This document shows positions 1,607 through 34,587 of a DNA stretch of 42,729 bases, piece by piece. The notes beneath the pieces are model-generated. The model made no database searches, was not told the DNA's origin, and worked only from the letters and a program-made list of their open reading frames with translations. This DNA is from a virus. The stretch covers positions 1 through 42,729 of the IMG/VR virus record IMGVR_UViG_3300013138_000012. One strand, given 5' to 3'. The position numbers and the translations under genes were made by a program. The stretch's first letter is position 1. Every line of letters starts with the position of its first letter.

Positions 1607-2011
1607 TCATGGCTGGTCGCTGTAGGAGCGACAGCCATAGCTATACCGCATGACCTCCACGTACTTCGCGAAGGTCGGTTTCGCCACCCGCTTGGGTGGG
1701 GGCGGATAGCCGTCGCTGTCCTGCTCGTGCAGGTAGCAGACGGCCGGGAGGAGCGCGTACGCATCCTCCAGGCGGCCCTGGTAGCAAGCCAGGGCGTACG
1801 GGGACAAGGAGGCCTCGTACTCGGCCTCCTCCTTGGCCCTACGGGCCTGCTCGGCCTCGTAGGCCGCCTGCTCGGCAAGCCGGGCCAGAGCATGGGCCGA
1901 GAGCCCCCTGGTCTCTGCCGGAGGGTCGCAGGTGGGGCAGCCACCGGCGTAACCGTGGCTGCAAAGTGTGGCGGGCCGCTCGCCATCCTCTATTCCGTGG
2001 AGGTAGCCCAT
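1607..2011 (-). CDS. GC-rich hypothetical protein coupled to the Csx16-like gene (134 aa)
   Basis: The frame can be extended to 2140, but the ATG at 2011 overlaps the TAA of the Csx16-like gene (TAATG), which makes it the natural start. The N-terminal part carries CSHGYAGGCPTCDPP, a possible zinc knuckle. An Ala/Glu-rich helical or coiled segment follows (LARLAEQAAYEAEQA), then a tail rich in Tyr and Pro. Codon and base use are far more GC-rich than the phage core. I do not recognise it. Its tight coupling suggests it may act with the Csx16-like protein, but that is inference only. Confidence 0.6.
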   Translation of the reverse strand: MGYLHGIEDGERPATLCSHGYAGGCPTCDPPAETRGLSAHALARLAEQAAYEAEQARRAKEEAEYEASLSPYALACYQGRLEDAYALLPAVCYLHEQDSDGYPPPPKRVAKPTFAKYVEVMRYSYGCRSYSDQP

Positions 2012-2307
2012 TAGAGCACCTCCACGTGGTAGGTCACCGGGGCTCCGGCGTACCGCCGGACCTGGTCGAGGGTCAACTCGACCCCCCGGAGCTCTGCCGG
2101 GAGAGCAAGTGGCACCTCTGTGAAGGTCTCGCAGAGGCACGACAGCGAGTGCGGCAGGACGCCGCAGACGTGCTTCCCTCGGACTAAATCCGGGGTGGCG
2201 TGGCCGATTACCTCTGTTTTGGAGTCGGCAAGGCCGATCTCCCGGAGGTAATCCACCAAGCCTGGGTGCCTGGTCACTACGATCTCTACTCTAATTTTTT
2301 CACTCAT
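2011..2307 (-). CDS. csx16: Csx16 (VVA1548)-family CRISPR-associated protein, putative viral ring nuclease
   Basis: The 98-aa product shows the hallmarks of Csx16: VVTRHPG at residues 10-16, a middle segment GKHVCGVLP at 44-52 matching the family's GD.VIGTLP, and LPAELRGVELT at 69-79 matching the LPAE.RG.EL box. Length is normal for the family. Csx16 occurs as an accessory of type III CRISPR loci and has been linked to cleavage of cyclic oligoadenylate messengers. No cas gene or array is nearby, so as a phage gene it is more likely an anti-CRISPR than part of a defence system. A very strong Shine-Dalgarno (AGGAGGAGGAGG) precedes the ATG. It lies in a GC-rich island behind promoter copy 2. Family assignment is from recalled motifs, and the activity is inferred. 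Confidence 0.82.
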   Translation of the reverse strand: MSEKIRVEIVVTRHPGLVDYLREIGLADSKTEVIGHATPDLVRGKHVCGVLPHSLSCLCETFTEVPLALPAELRGVELTLDQVRRYAGAPVTYHVEVL

Positions 2308-5113: not shown

Positions 5114-5359
5114 TTACCTCGTAGCTGTCCTTTTCAAGAATTCCTCTTCTGAATATTCGATGCCGCGCAAATACCAGTACCTATTACCATTAGCATACTC
5201 AATCGCAGGACCATCCTCACGGTGGATCTTGTCATTCAAGTACCAACACTTATCACCATTAGTACACTCAACCGCGGGGCCATCTGTGCGGTGAAGCATG
5301 CCATTCAGATACCAATACTTATCACCATCTTCTTCAACAATCACTTCGTACTCATTCAT
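5114..5359 (-). CDS. WYLNG/HREDGPA-repeat protein, paralogue A (81 aa)
   Basis: The protein has three tandem units of about 22 residues with the pattern WYLNxxxHRxDGPAxE, ending in the C-terminal motif EYSEEEFLKRTATR. The repeats resemble the beta-hairpin 'YWYLNGKLHREDGPA' repeats found in many phage and giant-virus proteins; function is unknown. It is the only gene behind promoter copy 3. Paralogues lie at 9292..9774 and 39790..40026, with a remnant at 21000..21104. It is shorter at the C-terminus than the 39790 copy because a stop follows TATR. Confidence 0.8.
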   Translation of the reverse strand: MNEYEVIVEEDGDKYWYLNGMLHRTDGPAVECTNGDKCWYLNDKIHREDGPAIEYANGNRYWYLRGIEYSEEEFLKRTATR

Positions 5360-5463: not shown

Positions 5464-5700
5464 TCAGAACAAAATTTCTCTTGGGTGAAATTGGCGTCCA
5501 TGTTCGTACATAAAATCTTCCAGTATTCTCACTCGGTCAAGAATGGACATGGATTCTTTAGTTTCCATGAACAATTTTTTATGGCAAATTTTTATTTTAT
5601 TCTGGCATTCCCTGCAATAAGTAGAATAATCGTTGTTTGCTCTGGCTTCAACTTTCACCTCACAGCATAACGAACAATGAATTTCTTTTAATATAGCCAT
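5464..5700 (-). CDS. Small zinc-finger protein (78 aa)
   Basis: CSLC near residue 9 and CREC near 29 form a four-cysteine zinc site of the kind found in phage HNH-like or zinc-ribbon proteins. The rest is basic, then helical. GGAG precedes the ATG in the same GAGGAGTTTTAAT leader that follows the thyX stop, which shows that this gene originally lay directly behind thyX. Part of it is repeated in the chimeric remnant just upstream. Function is unknown. Confidence 0.7.
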   Translation of the reverse strand: MAILKEIHCSLCCEVKVEARANNDYSTYCRECQNKIKICHKKLFMETKESMSILDRVRILEDFMYEHGRQFHPREILF

Positions 5701-5701
5701 A

Positions 5702-5866
5702 TTAAAACTCCTCGATCATGTCCCATGGTACCAGATTCATCAGTCTAATCATATCTGGATGTGCCGCTTGATTGGGCATTCCCAATTCTTTTCCTTTGTT
5801 GTAGTTCCATTCTGCTTCTCTGCAATAAGTAGAATAATCGTCGTTTGCTCTGGCTTCAACTTTCAC
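5702..5866 (-). pseudogene. Chimeric remnant: zinc-finger gene fused in frame to an internally deleted thyX tail
   Basis: From a GTG at 5866 the frame reads about 15 residues of the zinc-finger protein (ending YSTYCRE), then jumps at the shared TGCAGRGAA (Cys-Arg-Glu) codons into thyX (AEWNYNKGKELGMPNQ). It then skips about 33 thyX residues, resuming at AAHPDMIRLMNLVPW and ending as thyX does. Both junctions keep the frame. A 17-bp tandem duplication (GTGAAAGTTGAAGCCAG) breaks the frame upstream. It is a record of a tandem duplication that recombined at microhomologies and is probably not a functional gene. Confidence 0.7.
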
Positions 5867-5992: not shown

Positions 5993-6781
5993 TTAAAACT
6001 CCTCGATAATGTCCCATGGTACTAAATTCATTAGCCTAACTATATCTGGATGTGCCGCTTTGTCTGTCCTGAGTTTACGAATTAATTGCCACTCTTTTGC
6101 ATCAGCAGTGACCCATATCTCTGTCATTAGCGAATTGGGAAGCATAGCACGTGCCGCTTGATTGGGCATTCCCAATTCTTTTCCTTTGTTGTAGTTCCAT
6201 TCTGCTTCTCTGCATGAAACCTCAAATAAGAATTTTTGATTGCGGATAGCATTCTCTTTCTCATACCACCAAGGTTCAATGAATTTCATACCACCGATGC
6301 TTTCATCACAATATCTCGTTGATCTCTGAGCAAAACTCGCTGGACGATGCCTCACCAATTCATGGGAAACGCCTCTATCGCATATAAATTTTGCCGTATA
6401 TCTTTTTATTTCTTTAGGTATTACCTCACACTCACAAGAAAAATAATTAAGATCAGTGAATTGAAAATACTCTAACCAAGCTCGGTAATTACCACCAATG
6501 TAACATTTCTCGTTTATATGATCTCGATATTTAAGATGATACTTACCTCTAAAATTAGACCAGACATCTTCACCAACTTCCATGATGAAGTTTGAATGCT
6601 CAAGCATCGCTGTGTGGTTTCTAAGAAGAAGCATCTCCACAAATTCTTTTGCAGATGTTTCGGTAATTTTGTCCAATGAATTATAACAAGTTCTACCACA
6701 CTTCTCGATTAGTTTTAAACAACCATCGAGATCGGTTGGTGTCTCTGCAAAATGTTCCACCCTTGGTTTAATTATCTCCAT
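5993..6781 (-). CDS. thyX: Flavin-dependent thymidylate synthase ThyX (262 aa)
   Basis: The ThyX signature RHRx7S is exact: RHRPASFAQRS at residues 144-154, followed by TRY. The enzyme makes dTMP from dUMP using FAD, NAD(P)H and methylene-tetrahydrofolate. Length is typical. It works with the dUTPase, deaminase and class II ribonucleotide reductase in this window to supply dTTP. Its ATG overlaps the stop of a tiny upstream ORF (TAATG). The 3' end has been duplicated and rearranged just downstream (5702..5866). Confidence 0.95.
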   Translation of the reverse strand: MEIIKPRVEHFAETPTDLDGCLKLIEKCGRTCYNSLDKITETSAKEFVEMLLLRNHTAMLEHSNFIMEVGEDVWSNFRGKYHLKYRDHINEKCYIGGNYRAWLEYFQFTDLNYFSCECEVIPKEIKRYTAKFICDRGVSHELVRHRPASFAQRSTRYCDESIGGMKFIEPWWYEKENAIRNQKFLFEVSCREAEWNYNKGKELGMPNQAARAMLPNSLMTEIWVTADAKEWQLIRKLRTDKAAHPDIVRLMNLVPWDIIEEF

Positions 6782-7899: not shown

Positions 7900-8454
7900 T
7901 TACCACCATAGATTTTGATAATATTTACTGAATAGATTTATACCACGTTGTATTCTCTTCTGATGTTTCTTATAACCTTCTTTATCAAACCAATGCGTAT
8001 ATTTATCAGTCGGCACCATTTCAAACATTCCATCTTCTCTCTCAAATTCCATCACATCTACTTTACCATGATGAAATTGTTCTTCCCAATCACTATTATA
8101 CTCACCAAACGCCCAGATCATTTCATCCAAAATTATTTTCCAGCGTTTTTCACTACCTACATTTGCAGGATATCCATTGGTTTTCTTTCTGAATTCAACC
8201 AACGCCGGATGAATCACTTTAGCAAGAGTAGCATCAAGACTATATGTATCATAACTATAAATTTTTATCTTGTCTTTTCTCTCTGAGCGCCATTCATATA
8301 TTTGATTACAAAAATCATTGAATCTGGGAAATGTATCATGAATCCAAGTACCAATTTCAAATCGTCTTTCTGGAGATACACCAATGAATCTCAGTGTATC
8401 CGCAATCTGATATGGTCCAATAAATGTTTTATAATTTGGAATATTTACTTTCAT
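7900..8454 (-). CDS. Conserved phage protein of unknown function (184 aa)
   Basis: The features IGPYQIADTLRF, then SYDTYSLDATLAKVIHPAL and W..ILDEMIWAF, are those of a protein family found in many myoviruses and jumbo phages, with invariant W, D and E residues. It is soluble and mostly helical. Its ATG overlaps the stop of the Csx3-like gene (ATGA), so the two are translationally coupled. No function is established that I know of. Confidence 0.75.
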   Translation of the reverse strand: MKVNIPNYKTFIGPYQIADTLRFIGVSPERRFEIGTWIHDTFPRFNDFCNQIYEWRSERKDKIKIYSYDTYSLDATLAKVIHPALVEFRKKTNGYPANVGSEKRWKIILDEMIWAFGEYNSDWEEQFHHGKVDVMEFEREDGMFEMVPTDKYTHWFDKEGYKKHQKRIQRGINLFSKYYQNLWW

Positions 8455-8753
8455 AGCGGTGCACCATGGCGAGAAAGAACAGCCTCGCTTCTTCCATCGT
8501 TGTATCGAACCTCAGTGAATAAATGAACAACAGCATGAAATACTACCATATATGCCCATACTGCCATGGGACCAGTGAGAATAACCCGATCTCGTAGTTC
8601 ATCCTGATTATTTCTAATGATATTATTGATATTTCTACCAACAATATTTACAGCTTCTTTCATGGGGGTTATAAGATTCAATCTCCCAGCAACTTCTTCA
8701 ATTTCGCAGCCAGAATATAAATCAGAATTTTTCAGACTTAGATCAATAATCAT
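8451..8753 (-). CDS. csx3: Csx3-family protein, putative cyclic-oligoadenylate ring nuclease of phage origin
   Basis: The 100-aa product carries the Csx3 signature in its second half: RVILTGPMAVWAYMVVFH (56-73) matches the family's V.LSGRGP.WLYA...H, followed by VRYNDGRSEAVLSRHG (82-97) matching FDPRLG.AVV..SH. His73/His77, Asp86, Arg88 and His96 align with the conserved His, Asp, Arg and His of Csx3. Csx3 (Crn3) cleaves cyclic tetra-adenylate made by type III CRISPR. With no CRISPR genes nearby, a counter-defence role is likely. ATGA overlaps on both sides fix the start, and GGAG lies 10 nt upstream. The family call rests on recalled motifs. Confidence 0.8.
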   Translation of the reverse strand: MIIDLSLKNSDLYSGCEIEEVAGRLNLITPMKEAVNIVGRNINNIIRNNQDELRDRVILTGPMAVWAYMVVFHAVVHLFTEVRYNDGRSEAVLSRHGAPL

Positions 8754-8911
8754 GGCAGGTTGTCTCCGTTTGAAATAATAATATAACCAAGAACTGATAA
8801 AGGAACAAAACACAGTAGAATCATCGGCACAATACCAATATCACTGTTTTCGATATACCCAGCAGTACCAAAAAGAACAAAGATAGCAATGATAGCCACA
8901 AAAGATTTCAT
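8750..8911 (-). CDS. Small two-span membrane protein (53 aa)
   Basis: Two hydrophobic segments, about residues 4-18 and 26-46, are separated by the short polar YIENSDIG. AAGGAG lies 9 nt before the ATG. The gene ends in an ATGA overlap with the Csx3-like gene. A small membrane protein coupled to an anti-defence candidate may be a partner or simply another early host-takeover gene. I do not recognise a family. It is too short for most gene finders. Confidence 0.65.
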   Translation of the reverse strand: MKSFVAIIAIFVLFGTAGYIENSDIGIVPMILLCFVPLSVLGYIIISNGDNLP

Positions 8912-9265: not shown

Positions 9266-9293
9266 AAGCGGCATGTCTGGCATGCCGCTTTTT
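9266..9293 (+). terminator. Perfect 10-bp hairpin with T-tail on the plus strand
   Basis: AAGCGGCATG pairs with CATGCCGCTT around a 5-nt loop, and T residues follow on the plus strand. It lies immediately after the stop of the minus-strand WYLNG gene, where the T-tail is on the wrong strand for that gene. It may block antisense transcription or be part of imported DNA. Confidence 0.5.
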
Positions 9294-9774
9294 ACATACC
9301 AGCATCACGATCACTCAAACCTTGCAACACACCACATTTATCCAGCTTCCCAAGATGCACACTCCATCGGCAGGTATAGGCACCGAAATGCTTTCCAATC
9401 CATACGCCGCGAGGAAGTAATATCCAGCAAACGGCTCGGACAATTGCAAGCCGAAAACGCATAACAAGTCGGTCAAGTGAGCATTTATTGATTTTTTTGT
9501 GTTTGATGCCATTCAGATACCAGCACTTAGTACCATTGGCATACTCAATCGCAGGACCATCCTCGCGATGACGTTCACCATTCAAGTACCAATGCTTATC
9601 GCCATCAGCTTCAACAATCGCAGGACCATCCTCGCGGTGACGTTTATCATTCAAGTACCAACACTTAGTACCATTGGCATACTCAACAGCAGGACCATCC
9701 TCACGGTGACGTTTGCCATTCAGATACCAGCACTTAGTACCATTATCACCAACAATCACTTTATACTCTTTCAT
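9292..9774 (-). CDS. WYLNG/HREDGPA-repeat protein, paralogue B with foreign C-terminus (160 aa)
   Basis: Four repeat units (WYLNG..HREDGPA..E) fill about residues 1-82. Instead of the family's EYSEEEFLKRTAT tail, an unrelated Arg- and Cys-containing segment of about 70 residues follows, starting near KHKKINKCSLDRL. The DNA of that segment looks more balanced in base composition than the repeats, suggesting fusion to imported sequence at about 9480. No recurrent promoter precedes it; it is read from upstream. The 5' leader can fold a hairpin next to its GAGG. Confidence 0.7.
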   Translation of the reverse strand: MKEYKVIVGDNGTKCWYLNGKRHREDGPAVEYANGTKCWYLNDKRHREDGPAIVEADGDKHWYLNGERHREDGPAIEYANGTKCWYLNGIKHKKINKCSLDRLVMRFRLAIVRAVCWILLPRGVWIGKHFGAYTCRWSVHLGKLDKCGVLQGLSDRDAGM

Positions 9775-10401: not shown

Positions 10402-11337
10402 TTATTTCTGTGTTAGTGTATCAAGATCACTCAAGTCATTCATTTGAATCAACTTTAGTCCATAATTATTTATCAATGGTTCTTTATCAGGATCATATCC
10501 ATCTATATACTTTAATTTATTATCTTTAAACGGCAAATAATTTACATAATGATGAACTCGTTTATACTTCCATACAAGAGTAGTAACATCTGGATGGGCA
10601 TCATAAAGCATTTGACTTTTATTAATAGTACCAGAAGGATTAACACCATCAATCCATTTCTTTGTGTCCATCTCTCCTTCTACATGATAAAACTCCTGTG
10701 TATTGCCTCCCTTAATTGTCTGTGTTGCCGCCTTACCCTGTAAAAAACAATTGAACTGAATAGTACAGTCACCATCTTTAAGGATATCCAAACTTATGAT
10801 AGTATCTTCGTTGTATTTTCCCCTGAATCTATGTTTACAATTCACATCAATCAATGCGCAAGAATAAATTCGAGTATTCAATACAAACGGTGGATATGAT
10901 TGGTTGGGCGCACAAAAAAATCTATATTGCAATCCAGACATTGGTACATTAGAGTACCTATCATTGAAATCTTCCATTGCTCTGAACATGCAACCGCTCT
11001 CAACTCGAATCCTACAATTATTATGCAGTCTATAAAAAGATTCTATATTATCATCCATCACCCAAAATCTCTTTGCACCGAGATGAATTGTATGATCCCA
11101 GCACCAATTCCTTGCTCGTCCTGGACCATCTCCATGATTACTAAATGGAAGCACAAGTAATGTTACATATTTTCTAATTCCAAAGGTATCTAATGATTTG
11201 TCATAATCTTCATAATCTTGGGGTTCAATCGCTATGTAATGCGGAATTTTCATTCTTGATAATGCCCTTGAGGAGAGCATCGTATCAGAACGACCCTTTG
11301 AGACAATATAAACTGGATACTTAGGATTAGTCGTCAC
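10402..11337 (-). CDS. TET-associated glycosyltransferase (TAGT)-like enzyme (311 aa)
   Basis: Motifs in order are YPVYIVSKGRSDTM near residue 8, IEPQDYEDY, LPFSNHGDGPGRARNWCWDH, FWVMDDNIESF (a DxD-like metal site), FVLNTRIYSC and FLQGKAATQTIKGGNTQEFY. This is the pattern of the GT-A-like TET-associated glycosyltransferases predicted to sugar-modify hydroxymethylated bases in phage DNA. It suggests hypermodified DNA that resists restriction. No TET/JBP oxygenase or hydroxymethylase is in the window. The start is GTG, placed just after the stop of the upstream gene behind a GGAGGAG. The enzyme family is well supported; its acceptor is inferred. Confidence 0.82.
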   Translation of the reverse strand: MTTNPKYPVYIVSKGRSDTMLSSRALSRMKIPHYIAIEPQDYEDYDKSLDTFGIRKYVTLLVLPFSNHGDGPGRARNWCWDHTIHLGAKRFWVMDDNIESFYRLHNNCRIRVESGCMFRAMEDFNDRYSNVPMSGLQYRFFCAPNQSYPPFVLNTRIYSCALIDVNCKHRFRGKYNEDTIISLDILKDGDCTIQFNCFLQGKAATQTIKGGNTQEFYHVEGEMDTKKWIDGVNPSGTINKSQMLYDAHPDVTTLVWKYKRVHHYVNYLPFKDNKLKYIDGYDPDKEPLINNYGLKLIQMNDLSDLDTLTQK

Positions 11338-32725: not shown

Positions 32726-34024
32726 TTATAAAATCTTAACTTCTACAAGCGGTAGGGACTCTAAACTCCTACCTGTACTAAAATCAAAGAATCCAGTTTC
32801 TAACCAATAGAAACCATTGCCTCTGTTGATTTTAGCCTTACGAAAAGCATCCGGTATATCGGGAAGATTTGCCTCATGGTTTAAAGAAGCATTGTAATCT
32901 GCATCTAATTCCAGATTACAATGTTTACATGCGTAAATCTTTCCTTTCCGATTAGCTTTCCGCACTATGCCACAACCACTACATCTCTGACTTCTATAGG
33001 TAGAAGATTGGTGAATTAGATGGACGCCATTCTCTTCACAAATTCGTTCTACCTTGTCTCGGATGAGGGTGTTTGTCCAGTGGGACAAAATTCTTGATCG
33101 TCTTGTTTTGTAACCTATATTGAATATTCGTTCTAATCTTAGTTCTTTTATGTTTGAAACATTTAACTGGTTAATTGACCAATTTATATGATTCTTTCTA
33201 TGATCTTGAGCACGCTTAAATGCTTTGCTTCCTTTTTTCTTTCTTGTCATTTTAGAAAGAATAGACTCTAAACTATGTCCATGATGACATTTATTGGGCA
33301 ATTGCTGCTTATCAGAAGTGGTGAGAATATCTTTTAAACCTTGATCTGCGCCGACTATTATTCCTTCTGTTTTCTTTGAAACATCTTGAATTTTCCATCT
33401 TACGTCTATAGAATCTCTATCAACAAGAAAGGAGGTCATCATAACACCCCTCTCCTTTAAAGAAAGAGAATGTTTTGTGTGTTTTAAAGGGATTACAACT
33501 TCTCTCTTATCTTTGAATATAGATTTTAGATGTAAGAATCCATCAAAATGTTTGCAATCCCTTTCTAAAAAGGAAATACATTTAGAACTTAATTCAGGTT
33601 TTATCTTGTCCAGTGAGGGCTTTACTGGATTATTTTGTTTGATTTTTTTAATCAGGGGTTTCATTGATTTTTTACTTCTTCCCTCTGATTTTAATTTCTC
33701 AAGCATGAAAATTCTTTTTCTCTGTTTTTCAACCTCTGCTTTTATTATTCCCGAGAGTTGAACAACGATATGGGATAACGCCCTTGCTGATAGAGAAGTT
33801 TGAAAAGTGAAATGTTTGTAGTCTATATATTTTGGAACATTCAATTTCTTTTCTTTCACTGAAAAGGAATAATCTTTTCCATTTACTGTCCATGAATAAC
33901 CATTCTCCCAAATATCATCGAGAATTATAGAAGATGCTCTTCTATATTCACTTATGAAAGAGGAAAGAGTTTTTAATTTTCCGGTGTTGGAAAATTTTGT
34001 TATATGCTTGCTGCTTCTAATCAT
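32726..34024 (-). CDS. tnpB: TnpB, RNA-guided nuclease of IS607 type (432 aa)
   Basis: The RuvC-like catalytic centre looks intact: VGADQGLKDIL carries the first Asp, LRLERIF the Glu and ELDADYNAS the last Asp. A zinc ribbon lies between them (CSGCG...CKHC). TnpB proteins are guided by a reRNA/omegaRNA made from the transposon right end and cut DNA next to a target motif, aiding retention of the element. The omegaRNA would be expected around the tnpB 3' end, near 32690..32900. Catalytic competence is inferred from motifs. Confidence 0.92.
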   Translation of the reverse strand: MIRSSKHITKFSNTGKLKTLSSFISEYRRASSIILDDIWENGYSWTVNGKDYSFSVKEKKLNVPKYIDYKHFTFQTSLSARALSHIVVQLSGIIKAEVEKQRKRIFMLEKLKSEGRSKKSMKPLIKKIKQNNPVKPSLDKIKPELSSKCISFLERDCKHFDGFLHLKSIFKDKREVVIPLKHTKHSLSLKERGVMMTSFLVDRDSIDVRWKIQDVSKKTEGIIVGADQGLKDILTTSDKQQLPNKCHHGHSLESILSKMTRKKKGSKAFKRAQDHRKNHINWSINQLNVSNIKELRLERIFNIGYKTRRSRILSHWTNTLIRDKVERICEENGVHLIHQSSTYRSQRCSGCGIVRKANRKGKIYACKHCNLELDADYNASLNHEANLPDIPDAFRKAKINRGNGFYWLETGFFDFSTGRSLESLPLVEVKIL

Positions 34025-34587
34025 TGTTCCAAGACTATATCCTTAACTTCTTTTACTTTTTTTCTTCCTCGCCTAATTCCATAAAGACGACAACAAAAAG
34101 ATGTTATTATTGAAATCATATCTTTAATTAAATCCTTCTCATCTTCACAGTCTCTATTAAGAACAATAATTTGGCAATTCAACTTGTTTAGTAATTTTTC
34201 AAGATAATTAAAACCGAAACGAGTTAATCTATCTTTATGTTCAACTATAATAACAGACGGAAGAGAATCGAGCATTTCCATTAGCTTTGGTCTCTTATCG
34301 TTCATCCCAGAAGCTATTTCTTTGTAAATTTTTTCAATCTCAAATCCTTTGCTGTTGGCAAAAGAGACACAACTACTAATCTGATTTTCGAGGGACTTCT
34401 TCCTATCATAAGAAGAAACTCTTGCATAGATCACGATCTTTCCCATCTCTTCTTTTTTGTCCTCATGAACAAAAATGGAACCAGAAGGTGACACTTCTAC
34501 CAAATGAGGGATTTTCCCCTCTCTGAACCACTTATAAGCGGTGTGATAAGTTATTCCTTGTTTTTTTGCCCATACAGACAATTTCAT
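34021..34587 (-). CDS. tnpA: IS607-family serine recombinase TnpA (188 aa)
   Basis: The N-terminal MerR-like helix-turn-helix (MKLSVWAKKQGITYHTAYKW) and the resolvase domain with IVIYARVSSYDRKKSLENQ, in which the serine of ARVSS is the nucleophile, and EHKDRLTRFG are diagnostic. The C-terminal helix is of normal length. The enzyme moves the IS607 element. Its stop overlaps the tnpB start (ATGA). Confidence 0.93.
   Translation of the reverse strand: MKLSVWAKKQGITYHTAYKWFREGKIPHLVEVSPSGSIFVHEDKKEEMGKIVIYARVSSYDRKKSLENQISSCVSFANSKGFEIEKIYKEIASGMNDKRPKLMEMLDSLPSVIIVEHKDRLTRFGFNYLEKLLNKLNCQIIVLNRDCEDEKDLIKDMISIITSFCCRLYGIRRGRKKVKEVKDIVLEQ

Follow-up and report, generated by a model that had tools for sequence, protein, structure and literature searches.

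From our profile, reverse-search and structure-prediction analyses, we conclude that a 42.7-kb virus record (IMG/VR record IMGVR_UViG_3300013138_000012; its 42,729 nucleotides are called the window here) encodes a distant relative of Csx3, and that this protein belongs to a previously unlisted family of phage proteins that constitutes a divergent Csx3-like branch. By analogy with its cellular relatives, the family is probably a viral cA4 ring nuclease acting against type III CRISPR. Csx3 is an enzyme by which bacteria destroy a CRISPR alarm molecule. If our reading is true, phages too make use of this host switch-off enzyme.

Csx3-like gene and its setting

The Csx3-like gene lies on the minus strand with its 5' end at position 8753 (Table 1). 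It starts with ATG, preceded by GGAGA at a distance of 9 nt, and encodes 100 amino acids followed by a stop codon. Both sequence stretches quoted in an initial annotation of this DNA are found in the ORF, and the overlapping starts and stops that it described on both sides are 4-nt ATGA overlaps (CCATGA upstream, CTATGA downstream). The ORF is a real gene. Its upstream neighbour, a short hydrophobic ORF, had no match in PHROG or PADLOC. Homologues of the downstream gene were inspected in 80 viral loci, where a Csx3-like gene adjoins none of them and only chance alignments were obtained. The record also encodes a T4-type DNA polymerase, a UvsX-like recombinase, a DnaB-like helicase, an ATP-dependent DNA ligase and a ribonucleotide reductase. 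The earlier statement that no cas genes are nearby holds for the ORFs scanned with PADLOC, in which eight other ORFs of the window gave no match.

Table 1. Position of the Csx3-like gene, its two halves and its neighbours in the window.
Feature	Position	Strand	Basis or remark
Csx3-like 100-aa protein P0001	8451..8753	-	ORF; 10 relative ORFs; PADLOC Csx3 E 1.9e-4; AF2 family model pLDDT 89
Csx3-like core, residues 57-100	8454..8585	-	V-I-L-T-G-P-M-A-V-W ... H73 ... H77 ... Y84-N-D86-G-R88 ... H96; hhalign of family against nine Csx3 proteins
N-terminal half, residues 1-56	8586..8753	-	kept within the phage family, without alignable Csx3 counterpart; alignment of 11 members
Upstream 53-aa hydrophobic ORF	8750..8911	-	stop overlaps Csx3-like start by 4 nt; best 19-residue mean hydropathy 2.5
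Downstream 184-aa gene, phrog_11543 (unknown function)	7900..8454	-	start overlaps Csx3-like stop by 4 nt

A phage family of Csx3-like proteins

Searched as a single sequence, P0001 matched nothing in Pfam or PDB and nothing of note in PHROGs or NCBIfam; tblastn returned nothing from 50,697 phage records or 72,556 plasmids, and scans of viral and genome contig collections with P0001 alone yielded no relative. Matches to DDP1 and DfrA24 were weak single hits and were dropped. Relatives were recovered with a degenerate DNA pattern for G-P-x-A-x-W-A-Y, which led to two true relatives. A profile of these two led to six more contigs, and a looser pattern to one further contig (L116). The pattern matches L091-L093 are not relatives of P0001. 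As recovered by DNA pattern and profile searches, the family has 11 members, P0001 included, distributed over 10 phage contigs; at least 10 phage contigs thus carry it.

The members are encoded by phages or viruses, on IMG/VR contigs that carry terminase, Sak4 or phage DNA polymerase genes. Terminase genes occur in two of the contigs (L098 and L099), Sak4 with a helicase in L095, a phage helicase in L101, and a T4-like polymerase together with an RNA polymerase gene in L102. The G+C content of the contigs for which it was measured ranges from 23 to 60%. Contig L101 contains tandem Csx3-like genes on the plus strand (5511-5843 and 5995-6288), with a diverged second copy directly upstream. This diverged copy has GSTPVW and HH, nearer to the classical Csx3 motif.

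The dN/dS between the members of L095 and L096 is approximately 0.15-0.18 over 99 codons, and the family is under purifying selection. In a tree of the phage proteins and Csx3, the two groups stand apart on long branches, and the support for this split is no more than moderate (69/56); for these reasons we claim no origin for the phage family.

Relationship to Csx3

The PADLOC Csx3 models match P0001 alone (Table 1) and the tandem paralogue of L101 (E 2e-5). Scanned together, nine of nine members are matched, with a best E-value of 3.1e-7, and the models matched are, among the matches listed, Csx3 or CARF-HEPN-Csx3 only (including PDLC01040). None of 10 shuffled or reversed versions matched in PADLOC. 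Matches to the curated Pfam model are weak: Cas_csx3 (PF09620) was seen below threshold for five of the 11 members (best E 0.0088), was not listed for P0001 or for two relatives scanned, and its gathering score of 21 bits was passed by no member among the matches listed. The sole other Pfam family among the 11 members was a single KH_2 match (E 0.13).

In profile-profile comparison against nine Csx3 sequences, consisting of A. fulgidus Csx3 (AfCsx3, checked against PDB entries) and eight from genomes, the phage family scored 44.5 in hhalign, and 50.7 with 11 members, at a probability of 94-96. For comparison, 300 column permutations reached a maximum of 23.1 (mean 11.5), and the reversed profile reached 15.7. 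Small Csx3 subsets gave weaker scores of 24-25, and the Csx3 signal therefore rests on the pooled family. The alignment places phage residues 57-98 on AfCsx3 residues 41-81. In the reverse direction, 296 bacterial genomes searched with the phage profile gave a single match (E 3.7e-5), to the Csx3 domain that ends a CARF-HEPN protein. The likeness to the core of Csx3 on which the initial annotation was built is thus beyond chance, with an imperfect register for which a one-residue gap is needed. Taken together, the profile, reverse-search and model evidence supports homology between the phage family and the Csx3 core.

Predicted structure

The AF2 model made with the family alignment (pLDDT 89, pTM 0.80) has the predicted order b-b-b-a-b-a-b-b, with strands at residues 2-4, 18-21 and 24-27 and a helix at 31-48 in the N-terminal half. 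A single-sequence AF2 model of P0001 was all helix at pLDDT 54 and was discarded as uninformative; a transmembrane reading of the hydrophobic helix was likewise dropped after the family-based alpha/beta model. Among 350,542 PDB chains, the top Foldseek match of the family model was 6YUD, a structure of Csx3 with bound cA4, at a probability of 0.90 but with an E-value of 0.15 and a TM of 0.37 over approximately 53 columns; the search also scores residues and is not fully independent of the sequence evidence. The predicted structural likeness to Csx3 is therefore limited to the core, and a full-length Csx3 fold is not established by the model. Weak fold matches include the SAVED/CARF CBASS receptors Cap4 and Cap5. 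A search of viral folds in BFVD gave no convincing relative.

Conserved residues

His77, Asp86, Gly87 and His96 are invariant in all 11 members. His73, His77, Asp86 and His96 were invariant in the first nine; the L101 paralogue alone has Arg in place of His73, and both L101 copies have Lys in place of Arg88. In AfCsx3, cA4 cleavage needs H60 and D69 and is strongly reduced in R71 and H80 mutants; H57, H60 and H80 have been called absolutely conserved, and two dimers enclose cA4 between them (PMC7371418). Judged from alignment, with differences between aligners, His73, His77, Asp86, Arg/Lys88 and His96 would match these residues needed for or aiding cleavage (H57, H60, D69, R71 and H80). In most members the spacing His77-9-Asp86-2-Arg88-9-His equals that of H60-D69-R71-H80; the last strand of P0001 is one residue shorter than in most members. 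An ungapped alignment puts His77 on AfCsx3 His61, a Val in the column of the essential His60, and position 85 (Asn or Asp) on Asp69. Asp86 and Arg88 fall on Asp69 and Arg71 only with a one-residue gap, as one alignment has it, and the aligners differ on the equivalence of Asp86 and Asp69.

Of the residues by which AfCsx3 contacts cA4 (S44, G45, R46 and I49), the second is identical in the phage protein (G61), the first and last are similar (T60 and V65), and Arg46 is lost (P62); across the family this position is Pro or another residue. The C-terminal strand after the last His is absent as well, most members ending 0-5 residues past this His and the L101 paralogue approximately 10. In the N-terminal half, N9, L12, R24, T29 and N41 are invariant among the 11 aligned members. 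Of these, N9, R24, T29 and N41 may line a distinct pocket. The presence of invariant residues peculiar to this half suggests that the function is not simply copied from Csx3.

The initial annotation had called the protein a member of the Csx3 family. We retain this as kinship, indicated by PADLOC, profile-profile and reverse searches; at curated cut-offs the family falls outside Csx3, since no member passes Pfam gathering among the matches listed and both Arg46 and the C-terminal strand are missing. Of the checks that had been proposed, a profile search was positive with the PADLOC models and below the gathering score with PF09620, and the structural comparison returned 6YUD with likeness in the core only. 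Neither this comparison nor conservation in relatives spoke against the annotation: its His/Asp/Arg/His set is kept or nearly so, the departures being Lys for Arg88 in both L101 copies and Arg for His73 in the L101 paralogue.

Csx16-like gene and other features of the window

The initial annotation had counted the Csx3-like gene as the second ring-nuclease-like gene of this DNA, the other being Csx16-like (2011-2307, minus strand). The product of the latter matches PF09652 above the cut-off (E 7.7e-17) and PADLOC Csx16 (E 1.2e-14), and is a genuine member of the Csx16 family. The gene falls within the left-end 2.6 kb, whose composition differs strongly: positions 1-2600 have 55% G+C and the rest of the window 35%. 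This shift reflects either DNA imported recently by mosaic exchange or a chimeric join close to position 2600, and the presence of both genes in one genome is not secure for that reason.

Other observations were made in the window. Two short ORFs at 5464-5866 (minus strand), beside thyX (5993-6781), share a KVEARAN-DYSTYCRE stretch; one of them repeats C-terminal thymidylate synthase pieces without the internal segments, and the two look like a decayed duplication. A resolvase-like and transposase-like pair (phrog_6620 and phrog_506; 32726-34587, minus strand) lies inside the phage replication genes and resembles an IS607-type element with TnpB. Two mutually related ORFs (9292-9774 and 5114-5359, minus strand) are built of repeats of the form KCWYLNGKRHREDGPA. 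A glucosyltransferase-like gene (10402-11337, minus strand) matches phrog_842, beta-glucosyl-HMC-alpha-glucosyltransferase (9e-39), a hint that the phage DNA may be modified.

Proposed function and alternatives

We favour, with somewhat better than even confidence, the reading that P0001 is a stand-alone divergent Csx3-like (Crn3-like) phage protein that would cleave cA4 to turn off type III effectors. By analogy with Crn3, the protein would form a dimer and bind the cyclic tetra-adenylate made by host Cas10. Cleavage of cA4 would then be metal-dependent and take place between two dimers, one contributing its Asp86/Arg88 face and the next its His73/His77/His96 face; the loss of cA4 would silence the cA4-activated type III CRISPR effectors during infection. 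Oligomeric state, metal dependence, cA4 substrate, catalysis and anti-CRISPR role are all inferred here by analogy with the cellular enzyme. A cellular Csx3, that of M. mazei, gives partial relief from type III immunity in E. coli (PMC7371418), so that such an activity would serve a phage.

Similarity to Csx3 by coincidence, in an unrelated and possibly membrane-associated small phage protein, would fit the hydrophobic core helix (best 19-residue mean 1.75) and the all-helical single-sequence model. It is very improbable and is largely refuted by the confident alpha/beta model obtained with the family, by the matches of every member scanned to Csx3 models where shuffled versions gave none, and by a profile-profile score far outside the permutation null. 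A Csx3-fold protein could also serve the phage in another way, for example by binding RNA or trimming 3' ends. The first description of Csx3 was as a Mn-dependent RNA deadenylase. AfCsx3 does bind and deadenylate RNA, but Csx3 has been reassigned as a cA4-specific ring nuclease (PMC7371418). The Csx3-like gene is located among phage metabolism genes, and no member was linked here to a CRISPR-bearing host; against this stands the closest cellular relative found, a Csx3 domain fused to a CARF-HEPN type III effector. We regard an RNA role as quite unlikely.

The protein might instead derive from Csx3 and sequester a cyclic oligonucleotide as a sponge, or act on another messenger such as a CBASS or Thoeris nucleotide, without hydrolysing cA4; in our view this is unlikely. 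The family has its own invariant N9, R24, T29 and N41, which are absent from Csx3; the loss of Arg46 and of the C-terminal strand, and the occurrence of Cap4 and Cap5 among the weak fold matches, point the same way, and phage cyclic-nucleotide sponges are known (as cited in PMC12751052). A pure binder, however, would have no need of the invariant His77, Asp86 and His96 and the near-invariant Arg/Lys88, and sponging has been argued to work poorly against cyclic oligoadenylate, which type III systems make in large amounts (PMC13148439).

We also tentatively propose, at somewhat less than even confidence, that this trimmed-down Csx3 branch adds another class to the viral ring nucleases that counter type III CRISPR, that it has spread across unrelated phages (G+C 23%-60%), and that at least one phage pairs it with a Csx16 ring nuclease. 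Its lineage-specific N-terminal pocket might confer another cyclic-nucleotide specificity or a faster turnover than that of cellular Crn3.

Novelty and comparison with known systems

Phages are known to encode few ring-nuclease families: AcrIII-1 and AcrIII-2 have been established as anti-CRISPRs, and a handful of phage genomes carry Csx16 or Csx20. A survey of 28,114 phage genomes found AcrIII-1 in 36, Csx20 in four and Csx16 in two, and no Csx3/Crn3 (PMC12409355). AcrIII-2, a viral SAVED ring nuclease, was described after this 2025 survey (PMC12751052). The literature searched, exclusive of subscription papers and most preprints, contained no report of a phage-encoded Csx3/Crn3. The family scores weakly against the standard Pfam model and could therefore have been missed. 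It now provides a small set of proteins for testing, and a search profile that finds members missed by Pfam.

With Csx3/Crn3 (A. fulgidus AF_1864; PF09620; 3WZI and 6YUD), the phage proteins share a length of approximately 100 amino acids, the core VxLxG....W...H...H....Y.D.R....H in the same order, and a predicted strand-helix-strand-helix-strand-strand core. They differ from it in being phage-encoded, in scoring below the Pfam cut-off, in lacking the C-terminal strand, in having Pro for Arg46, in the one-residue register shifts near His60 and Asp69, and in their own conserved N-terminal half. The C-terminal domain of CARF-HEPN-Csx3 proteins (PDLC01844) gave the best single-sequence profile match, with a score of 53 and a probability of 96; it contains VxLTG.APVWLYL...HA.....R..Y and, as in the phage proteins, ends at the last His. 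This domain is part of an effector fusion, and the example in L105 is without the Asp and Arg, whereas the phage proteins stand alone and keep both. The 513-aa fusion of L105 is the nearest cellular relative of the phage family that was found.

Csx16 (PF09652), encoded on the same contig, is a second cA4 ring-nuclease family, with a CARF-like Rossmann fold unrelated to Csx3. AcrIII-1 (DUF1874, PF08960) resembles the phage family in its proposed role as a small phage-encoded enzyme that destroys cA4, and has an unrelated fold. Pfam gave no PF08960 match for any family member, and none above the cut-off in the window and nine other phage records. AcrIII-2 differs in its SAVED fold and its 230 amino acids (PMC12751052), and offers a parallel in that a phage carries a cellular sensor or ring-nuclease domain on its own as an anti-CRISPR.
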